A stretch of 41,845 nucleotides of DNA, taken from the NCBI GenBank assembly GCA_030041455.1, contig JASHNV010000064.1:1-41845 (forward strand), given 5' to 3'. The notes under the pieces were generated by a model. The model saw only the letters and a program-made list of their open reading frames with translations, ran no database searches and was not told where the DNA came from. Both the position numbers and the translations under genes were made by a program. Each line of letters begins with the position of its first letter. Positions within the stretch are counted from its first letter, which is position 1. This DNA comes from Spirochaetia bacterium. Its GTDB lineage: Bacteria > Spirochaetota > Spirochaetia > DAHUYW01. Positions 14,208-16,491 of the stretch are shown in pieces.

Positions 14208-14236
14208 CGGCCGCGGGCGGGATCCGCTCGCGCCTC

Positions 14237-14274
14237 GACCCGCGGCTCGCGCGAAGGCCTTCATGACGCGGGTC
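14237..14274 (+). other. Inverted repeat downstream of secA
   Basis: GACCCGCG (14237-14244) pairs perfectly with CGCGGGTC (14267-14274), and the 22-nt loop contains the smaller palindrome GAAGGCCTTC. There is no U tract after it, so it is not a standard intrinsic terminator. It could attenuate or pause transcription between secA and the next gene, or protect the secA mRNA end. Confidence 0.35.
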
Positions 14275-14314
14275 CGCGCCTGAGAACGCAACGAAAAGAG
14301 GGGGATCGAGCTCC

Positions 14315-16270
14315 ATGAAACGTCTGGTCGTCCTGACCTTCCTCGCCATGCTTTCCGGGGCCGCGGCCTCCGCCCAGGACTGGGTTTCGGTGATACCCGC
14401 CTCCGGGACCGTCCCGACGGGAGCCTTCAAGGCCGGGGTCGATACCGGGGGAGGTCCGCTCTATTTCATCCGCTTCCCCTACCAGGGAGGAGTCGTCGTC
14501 GGGAAATACGATCCGCTCGCGAGGACCGCCTCCATCTCCTACGGCGGAAAGGAGATCCAGATCACCACCGACCCGGTGGAGATCTTCGTCGGATTCGGCT
14601 TCTGGTTCTTCAGCGCGGACGGAAGCCCTCCTCCGAACGCCATCGTGGGAGGGAACGAGAGCGACGGAAGCCCGCTCTACATGATCGCCGGGACGTGGCT
14701 CGGAAACGTCACGTGCGGAAAATATTCCTCCGAATACGCCAAGGGCTACGTTCCGTTCGAGGGAAAGGAAATCGAGGAGACCCGAAATATCTACTTCCTC
14801 GTTCCGGCCGGATCGGGGAGCCCGGGCTCGTCCCGGGCGGGCCAGGACCCCCCGCCCGTCCGCCTGAGCTTCGCTCCCGGCGCCACCTCGGGGGTCGTGA
14901 AGGGAGCGCTCGACCCCGATCAGACGCGCACCTACCTCGTCGGCGCATCCGCCGGGCAGCCGATGATCGTGTCGGTGGACTCCCCGAGCCATGACGCCAC
15001 GATATCGGTGATCGGGAAGGACGGAACGGTTCTCCTCGACGCGGACCGCAAGGCCGCCTACTGGCAGGGCCTGCTCCAGGCCACCGAGGACTATCTCGTT
15101 CAGGTTTACGGCGGGACGCAAGCGGAGGGCTTTACCTTGAGCGTCAGCACTCCCGCGAGGATGACGATCGCCCCCGACTCGCCTTCCCCGGAGCGAAGCG
15201 GCGTGGCGCCCGAGGGAGAGAATCTCGATTTCGTCGTCCGCGGAAACGCCGGGGAAAAGCTCACGATCGATTTGGGACCGAACGGGATCCAGGACGCCGC
15301 GGTTCTCAGGGTCTACGGATTGGAGGACAACGAGACCTACCTGTCCTCCGACGCCGGCCGGACGAGCTTCGACTTTAGCGCTCCGAGCACGCAGGACTAC
15401 GTCGTCGAGCTCGTCCGCAAAATCGGCGCGGAGTTCTTCTACGATCTCCGCGTCTCAAGCCCGCAGGCGAACGGCTCGATTCAAAAAGTCTCGGGCCAAC
15501 GCTTCTTCGGCGACGCGGGCTACCTCTGGGGAGAGTCGGGGAGCGCCTTCGTCATGGAGCGGACCCCTGACGCGGGGAAAACGTGGAACCCGGTCGACCT
15601 CGCCTCGCTCGCGATCGACACGGGGAGCCTCTCGAAGGACTTTAGCGGACTGCCGGCTCTCCCCTACGTGCACTTCAGCAGTCTCACGAGGGGTTGGATG
15701 GTTTGGTCCACCGACGAGTCGGAGATTCACGTCGCGAGCACCCAGGACGGAGGCGCGACCTGGAGCCGGGCGGTCAACTTCTCCACCGACGCGATCGTCG
15801 AATACGAGGCCTTTCCCGGACCGGGACGAGCGTGCCTGCTCGCGGAGATGCCGGAAGGTATGATGCACACCACCCTCGTGACCCTCGCCACCGACGACGA
15901 CGGCGCCACGTGGTCCGTTGATTCTTCGTTCAGCGGCGACGGAGCGGGCGCGATCGTCTTCCGCAGCCCGACCGACGGCTTCATCCCCGTCGACTGTCCG
16001 CCGTGCGGCTATTTCCTCTTCTATCGAACCGAGGACGGAGGCAAGAGCTGGAACACGATCGATCTTCCCCTGCCGCAGGGCGTCTCGAGCGATGACTTCA
16101 ACGGCACCTGGCTCGGCGCTCCGGTCTTCCAGGGCCCCGATCGAAGGCAAGGAAAGATGACCGTAAAGATCGGGCTCGCCTCCCAGGGGATCACCGTCTT
16201 CACCTACACGACCAGCGACGGAGGAGACACCTGGGCGGTCGCGCCCTCGGCGGGCACGGTCGGGTCGTAG
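14315..16270 (+). CDS. Secreted multidomain protein with DM9 (DUF3421) repeats, PPC-like domains and Asp-box repeats
   Basis: The protein has 651 residues with a Sec signal peptide (MKRLVVLTFLAMLSGAAASA) and predicted cleavage before QDW. Residues 25-92 and 98-163 are two DM9-like repeats: each has a P-x-x-A-x-x-G start, a G-x-P-L-Y core, a GKY, and a final Y/F-x-G-KE. Residues 185-280 and 295-383 resemble prepeptidase C-terminal (PPC) beta domains. The C-terminal 270 residues contain five Asp-box motifs (TPDAGKTW, TQDGGATW, TDDDGATW, TEDGGKSW, TSDGGDTW), which build BNR/Ycf48-like propellers. No catalytic residues of a sialidase are obvious, so a binding role (glycan or surface) is more likely than hydrolysis. 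Domain assignment is from motif recognition; function is inferred. GAGGGGG lies upstream of the ATG. Confidence 0.75.
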   Translation: MKRLVVLTFLAMLSGAAASAQDWVSVIPASGTVPTGAFKAGVDTGGGPLYFIRFPYQGGVVVGKYDPLARTASISYGGKEIQITTDPVEIFVGFGFWFFSADGSPPPNAIVGGNESDGSPLYMIAGTWLGNVTCGKYSSEYAKGYVPFEGKEIEETRNIYFLVPAGSGSPGSSRAGQDPPPVRLSFAPGATSGVVKGALDPDQTRTYLVGASAGQPMIVSVDSPSHDATISVIGKDGTVLLDADRKAAYWQGLLQATEDYLVQVYGGTQAEGFTLSVSTPARMTIAPDSPSPERSGVAPEGENLDFVVRGNAGEKLTIDLGPNGIQDAAVLRVYGLEDNETYLSSDAGRTSFDFSAPSTQDYVVELVRKIGAEFFYDLRVSSPQANGSIQKVSGQRFFGDAGYLWGESGSAFVMERTPDAGKTWNPVDLASLAIDTGSLSKDFSGLPALPYVHFSSLTRGWMVWSTDESEIHVASTQDGGATWSRAVNFSTDAIVEYEAFPGPGRACLLAEMPEGMMHTTLVTLATDDDGATWSVDSSFSGDGAGAIVFRSPTDGFIPVDCPPCGYFLFYRTEDGGKSWNTIDLPLPQGVSSDDFNGTWLGAPVFQGPDRRQGKMTVKIGLASQGITVFTYTTSDGGDTWAVAPSAGTVGS

Positions 16271-16314
16271 CCGGCCGGGCTCGACCCCGCTTCGCTCGCG
16301 CCGTGCGACGTCAA

Positions 16315-16335
16315 ACGCCGCCGGCGGCGTCTTTT
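16315..16335 (+). terminator. Candidate intrinsic terminator between convergent genes
   Basis: A perfect 16-bp palindrome, ACGCCGCCGGCGGCGT (16315-16330), is followed by CTTTT. It would form a stem of about 6 bp with a 4-nt loop. It lies 45 bp after the stop of the DM9 gene and also just past the stop of the small convergent membrane gene. Confidence 0.55.
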
Positions 16336-16349
16336 CGCGCGAGGGCTCT

Positions 16350-16472
16350 TCATCCCGGGCGCGAGAGGCTTGCCGTCGAGGCCGGCACCTCCGCGGCGCG
16401 GAGGCTCGTGTACGACTGGATGAACACGAAGAGGGCGAACAGACCGATGACTATGAACACCAGCTTGCGCAT
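16350..16472 (-). CDS. Small single-pass membrane protein (40 residues)
   Basis: The frame begins MRKLVFIVIGLFALFVFIQSY and encodes 40 residues: two positive residues, one transmembrane segment (about residues 4-20), then a short, Ser/Ala-rich tail outside the membrane. AAGGAA lies at a good distance upstream of the ATG at 16472, and the gene starts 19 bp after the M23 peptidase stop in the same direction, so it looks like a real second gene of that unit. The topology suggests an envelope-anchored small protein, perhaps linked to cell-wall metabolism. I recognise no family. Confidence 0.6.
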   Translation of the reverse strand: MRKLVFIVIGLFALFVFIQSYTSLRAAEVPASTASLSRPG

Positions 16473-16491
16473 GAAGATTCCTTCGCTCGGG

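Follow-up and report, generated by a model that had tools for sequence, protein, structure and literature searches.

The closest described relative of the protein analysed here is CGL1 (CgDM9CP-1), a mannose lectin of the oyster Crassostrea gigas (PDB 5id8, 5idb, 5mh0-5mh3), which consists of the DM9 domain alone, at 143 aa, and forms a homodimer. Its mannose sites have been resolved to individual residues, with site A comprising Asp22, Lys43, Glu59, His52, Phe126 and the main chain of Ala127, and site B comprising Lys114, Glu130, Phe55, Tyr123 and the main chain of Ala56 (PMC4932603); the D22A and K43A substitutions abolish mannose binding, H52A is nearly without effect, and the ligands of CGL1-type DM9 include peptidoglycan and LPS (PMC5712788). 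The natterins join an N-terminal DM9 lectin domain to a larger C-terminal part, an aerolysin-type pore domain (PMC8402412). Bacterial DM9 proteins have been recorded in Legionella and Enterobacter (PMC5712788), the Legionella DM9 having been reported as a 'eukaryotic motif' (PMC4256840). DM9 in bacteria is already known, and what is new here is the domain setting.

This setting is found in a 651-residue protein encoded in a window of 41,845 nucleotides, by which we mean the whole stretch of DNA analysed. The first-pass guess that the host is a spirochaete is supported by four matches in its genome to FlaA, the flagellar sheath family of spirochaetes, vs. 0 in 14 control genomes. According to the ORF list, the gene occupies 14315..16270 of the plus strand, exactly as in the first-pass annotation, with an ATG start preceded by a purine-rich GAGGGGGA stretch and a stop codon at 16268-16270; a genome search revealed a single full-length copy in the host. 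A promoter scan found nothing, and terminator-like sites on the minus strand were at chance level only. The GC content of the gene is 65.1% (61.4% in the DM9 part) vs. 65.4% for the window, and its GC3, at 0.80 vs. 0.91 for secA, is high like that of its neighbours; base composition as read from the sequence is slightly low and is no proof of recent foreign origin. At the N-terminus we recognized by eye a Sec signal peptide (14315..14374, plus strand; MKRLVVLTFLAMLSGAAASA followed by Q) with AxA-type cleavage between ASA and QD, which contains no cysteine and lacks a lipobox, so the protein is not a lipoprotein. Surface exposure and host contact, as first proposed for this protein, were not borne out, since the signal peptide predicts export only and neither an anchor nor a signal for outer-membrane sorting was recognized; the final location, the biological purpose and the role of the non-DM9 domains are what we infer. 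On the whole, we consider it probable that this is an exported glycan-binding protein, namely a two-site mannose-type DM9 lectin on a lineage-specific scaffold.

Two DM9 repeats follow the signal peptide, the first at 14378..14587 (plus strand, residues 22-91) and the second at 14588..14809 (plus strand, residues 92-165). Pfam DM9 (PF11901) matched residues 43-154 in two stretches with 91.7 bits (E 3.9e-26), thus passing the curated cut-off of 26.2 bits, and the repeat is real because the two halves of the DM9 part match each other (36% identical, E 6.5e-11). A plain phmmer search of the PDB with the DM9 part yielded oyster CGL1, deposited as Natterin-3, as the top match (E 3.6e-5), and a profile built from eleven bacterial DM9 sequences returned CGL1 entries only (E 6e-25). 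With the alignment of these eleven sequences as input, AlphaFold2 produced a model with a mean pLDDT of 94.5 and a pTM of 0.88, for which ranks 1-4 among the Foldseek matches in the PDB were all CGL1 (TM 0.81-0.83, 2.2-2.4 A), the best at E 2.3e-9 and TM 0.83. By predicted structure, the tandem DM9 repeats therefore have the CGL1 (N-type lectin) fold. The earlier reading of two DM9-like repeats behind a signal peptide was accordingly upheld, with both the HMM search and the predicted fold pointing to DM9 and neither to an unrelated structure. The likeness to CGL1 lies in the two DM9 repeats and the predicted fold, whereas the present protein is bacterial and exported, with its DM9 fused to ~490 further residues. 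With the natterins it shares an N-terminal DM9 followed by a larger C-terminal part, but this part comprises sandwiches and Asp boxes instead, and no Pfam match to an aerolysin-type pore domain was found after the DM9. As a side observation, the nematode sperm protein MFP2 (2bjr) came next after CGL1 in the Foldseek search with the DM9 model (14375-14809; E 5e-4, TM 0.71), and on this modelled structure the DM9 fold may extend to MFP2.

Despite an overall identity to CGL1 of only 38/126 (30%), the contact residues are largely retained. By alignment, Asp43, Lys64, Tyr76 and Glu80 of repeat 1 take the places of CGL1 Asp22, Lys43, Phe55 and Glu59, and Lys136, Tyr145, Phe148 and Glu152 of repeat 2 those of Lys114, Tyr123, Phe126 and Glu130. 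Site A is thus represented by Asp43, Lys64, Glu80, Ser73, Phe148 and Glu149, and site B by Lys136, Glu152, Tyr76, Tyr145 and Gly77. Among the side-chain contact positions of the two mannose sites, 7 of 9 are identical and one is a Phe to Tyr change; the sole side chain lost is His52 (Ser73 here), which is dispensable in CGL1 (PMC5712788). Both binding-essential residues, Asp22 and Lys43, are kept, as is Glu59. As most of the CGL1 contact residues are kept, sugar binding by the DM9 head is likely on sequence grounds, and the sugar-binding role suggested at first pass gains support from the conservation of residues shown to be essential by mutagenesis of the oyster lectin (PMC5712788). We surmise that, upon Sec export, the N-terminal two-repeat domain would fold like oyster CGL1, and that its two inter-repeat pockets would most likely accommodate terminal mannose-type sugars, with site A acting via Asp43-Lys64-Glu80 plus Phe148 and site B via Lys136-Glu152 plus Tyr76/Tyr145. 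There are nevertheless differences in detail: 1) the main-chain contact Ala127 of CGL1 is replaced by Glu149, where other bacterial DM9s have Gly, and loop lengths after Lys64 vary among DM9s, so the candidate site A may be altered; 2) by repeat symmetry, Glu115 occupies the Asp22-equivalent place of repeat 2, where CGL1 site B has no acid; 3) the Lys and Glu site positions are invariant across the two-repeat bacterial DM9s compared, but the Asp22 place is Glu in most of them, and sugar specificity is for this reason not readable from sequence.

Behind the DM9 head lie two beta-sandwich domains, at 14855..15163 (plus strand, residues 181-283) and 15164..15481 (plus strand, residues 284-389), which are related to each other (24% identical, E 1e-5). 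They had been annotated as two PPC-like domains, a description that stands at the level of the fold but not as a family label, given that Pfam PPC (PF04151) scored 20.9 bits on the isolated pair, under the cut-off of 25.9, and that PliG, the periplasmic g-type lysozyme inhibitor, is closer. PliG was the closest PDB sequence to the middle domains (4dzg; E 5.2e-5 with a single sequence, 1.4e-6 with a three-sequence profile), and the first sandwich is tied to it by sequence, profile and Foldseek, the last aligning it with A. hydrophila PliG across 108 columns at 30% identity and 2.6 A (TM 0.73 by target length). The second sandwich is placed by its sub-cut-off PPC score, a weak profile match to another PliG chain, 4dy3, and its kinship to the first. 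The model of the pair is mostly at pLDDT 70-89, and its top Foldseek match was the ColG tandem collagen-binding pair (E 3.3e-9), with a TM of only 0.30 over the pair. Since no solved sequence is closer to either domain than PliG, and since its structure also matches the first domain well, one could propose that the middle domains guard against goose-type lysozyme while the DM9 and the Asp boxes place the protein on the cell envelope. We regard this as very unlikely, as the SGxY motif of the inhibitory loop, defined for PliG families (PMC5507604), was absent from both sandwiches in a sequence search, occurring only in a paralogue described below, and as the same fold also serves the ColG collagen-binding and PPC domains. 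The lysozyme-inhibitor reading was rejected for lack of this motif. Compared with PliG, the present protein shares sequence and fold similarity but has two such domains in tandem without SGxY; with the PPC and ColG domains it shares the beta-sandwich fold while remaining below the Pfam PPC cut-off. We therefore refer to the middle domains as PliG/PPC-type sandwiches that lack the inhibitor signature; they may serve as a spacer or form an additional unit for binding.

The remainder of the protein (15482..16267, plus strand, residues 390-651) carries five Asp boxes, counted as S/T-x-D-x-G-x-T/S-W, at 15563, 15740, 15890, 16028 and 16211, i.e. residues 417, 476, 526, 572 and 633, spaced 46-61 residues apart. 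The five boxes claimed at first pass were confirmed, in that shuffling the protein 20,000 times produced 0.0055 boxes on average, with a maximum of 1. Among the models proposed for an HMM check, DM9 was well above its cut-off and PPC below, whereas BNR on the isolated C-terminal part scored 27.0 bits, exactly at its cut-off of 27, and Ycf48 gave weak matches. Repeated Asp boxes are shared with Ycf48 and other Asp-box (BNR) proteins, but the region here is short and no curated cut-off is clearly passed; presumably it forms a partial or small beta-propeller. Asp boxes are common in sialidases, and sialidases appeared among the Foldseek matches of the C-terminal model, so the region might be read as a catalytic sialidase or other glycosidase with DM9 as its carbohydrate-binding module. 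These structural matches are not usable, because the model, built from a three-sequence alignment, has a pLDDT of about 30; furthermore, 262 residues are short for a six-bladed sialidase, there is no FRIP/YRIP motif and GH33 gave no Pfam match. A catalytic role of this kind is in our view scarcely credible, and the sialidase (GH33) reading was rejected for want of FRIP and a usable model. We favor instead a further, non-catalytic recognition unit as the part that the Asp-box region would play in a glycan-binding protein.

Relatives of the parts suggest a modular family. A search of 60 relatives turned up no full-length relative, and across 297 genomes of the class the sandwich pair had no close match beyond the genus. 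The whole-protein search of genome contigs found Asp-box proteins only (in Paenibacillus, Curvibacter, a Chitinophagaceae MAG and an Ignavibacteria MAG), and the genomes of these matches gave no DM9 match. Within the host genome, a paralogue on contig C183 (L028:421-1713) is a 431-aa frame without DM9, in which the signal peptide is followed by two sandwiches and three Asp boxes; it is the only one of the three family members to carry the SGxY motif, as SGDY in its first sandwich. A near-identical second copy of this paralogue is truncated at the end of contig C135 (L036 end). The two copies are 93-97% identical in DNA and have the same gene upstream, a situation that reflects either a recent duplication or a strain mixture in the assembly. 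The third member, a 488-aa frame on contig C42 of the congeneric genome G001, lacks Asp boxes and has the two sandwiches (48% identical) behind an N-terminal region unrelated to the present one. From the architectures of the C183 and C42 proteins it follows that the paired sandwich is the constant element, with the ends varying. We postulate a small genus-specific family that keeps the sandwich pair and exchanges the attached parts. The combination of DM9, two sandwiches and Asp boxes was found nowhere else among the sequences searched, nor was a description of the same architecture found in the literature searched; the protein is a rare domain combination in which each part is of a known kind.

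The gene is surrounded by secA, a small minus-strand reading frame (MRKLV...), a LysM-M23 peptidase, a penicillin-binding protein and others. The host order is sampled by two genomes, the host and G001, both of the same genus, and in G001 the arrangement of all these neighbours is unchanged (SecA 78% identical), but the gene is missing from its syntenic place between secA and the small frame. DNA similarity to G001 ends at the secA stop codon and restarts 98 bp later within the small frame, so that the interval 14208..16398 is represented by 98 bp there vs. about 2.2 kb here. The small frame itself (window 16353-16475, minus strand; MRKLVFIVIGLFALFVFIQSYTSLRAAEVPASTASLSRPG), kept in G001 beside the empty place, probably encodes a single-pass membrane protein. 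The gene would have been inserted between secA and the small frame in the host species or lost from the congener; that it was gained or assembled within the genus is a simpler explanation than its loss in G001, yet the two cannot be separated because the order has two genomes. The housekeeping envelope genes nearby (secA, LysM-M23 peptidase, penicillin-binding protein), the weak Ycf48 matches, the lack of a visible surface anchor and the binding of peptidoglycan and LPS by CGL1-type DM9 (PMC5712788) would all accord with a structural or assembly factor of the periplasm or envelope that keeps the DM9 fold for protein-protein or peptidoglycan contact and has a Ycf48-like Asp-box part, rather than a lectin for outside sugars. 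We judge this doubtful, as the sugar-contact residues are kept and as the gene, being absent in G001 while its neighbours are conserved, is not a core part of the locus. An exported lectin remains our preferred interpretation.

Elsewhere in bacteria, DM9 is thinly spread. Matches above the curated cut-off were found in 6/393 genomes of the host phylum, 2/398 of the phylum of Curvibacter and 3/395 of that of the Chitinophagaceae MAG, vs. 0/398 of the phylum of Paenibacillus, where control genomes gave no match either and absence is not proven. DM9 thus occurs in about 1% of the bacterial genomes sampled and in at least three phyla, in agreement with the rarity initially assumed. Tblastn with DM9 against plasmids and phages gave no match, and a profile scan of viral contigs yielded none confirmed. 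The other DM9 proteins in the sampled genomes are mostly short, exported proteins with a pair of DM9 repeats or a single one; like those of Legionella and other bacteria they share the DM9, but they are mostly DM9 alone and none has the present architecture. One further DM9 is part of a 267-aa frame. In a 448-aa frame (L041:1468-2811, minus strand), two DM9 repeats lie behind a stretch with a HEATH..H motif resembling a metal site; Pfam recognizes only the DM9, and the protein is possibly a peptidase with a lectin tail. In another genome, G336, two different contigs each carry a DM9 gene with a single repeat and no signal peptide (L029:5687-5917 and L030:78-332, both minus strand); the two genes are near-identical and lie in patches 91-95% identical, one of them near an apparent integrase fragment (L012 825-1271, by eye); the repeat is apparently very close to a tandem pair (L040) from the phylum of the Chitinophagaceae MAG, which suggests recent DM9 copying and transfer between phyla.

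DM9 lectins have been studied almost only as animal immune proteins and are best known from oysters and insects. We speculate, and tentatively at that, that this uncultured spirochaete order possesses a modular exported scaffold of paired PliG/PPC sandwiches with swapped recognition heads. In one species the head would be a mannose lectin of the animal type in which both pockets are complete, each having the acid that CGL1 site B lacks, and the protein would be the bacterial equivalent of a pattern-recognition lectin of invertebrates. The protein adds to the evidence for a thin spread of DM9 across bacteria, and it offers a clean test of bacterial DM9 sugar binding, as it preserves the residues essential in CGL1, has its DM9 in a novel domain context and is present in one congener of the two.
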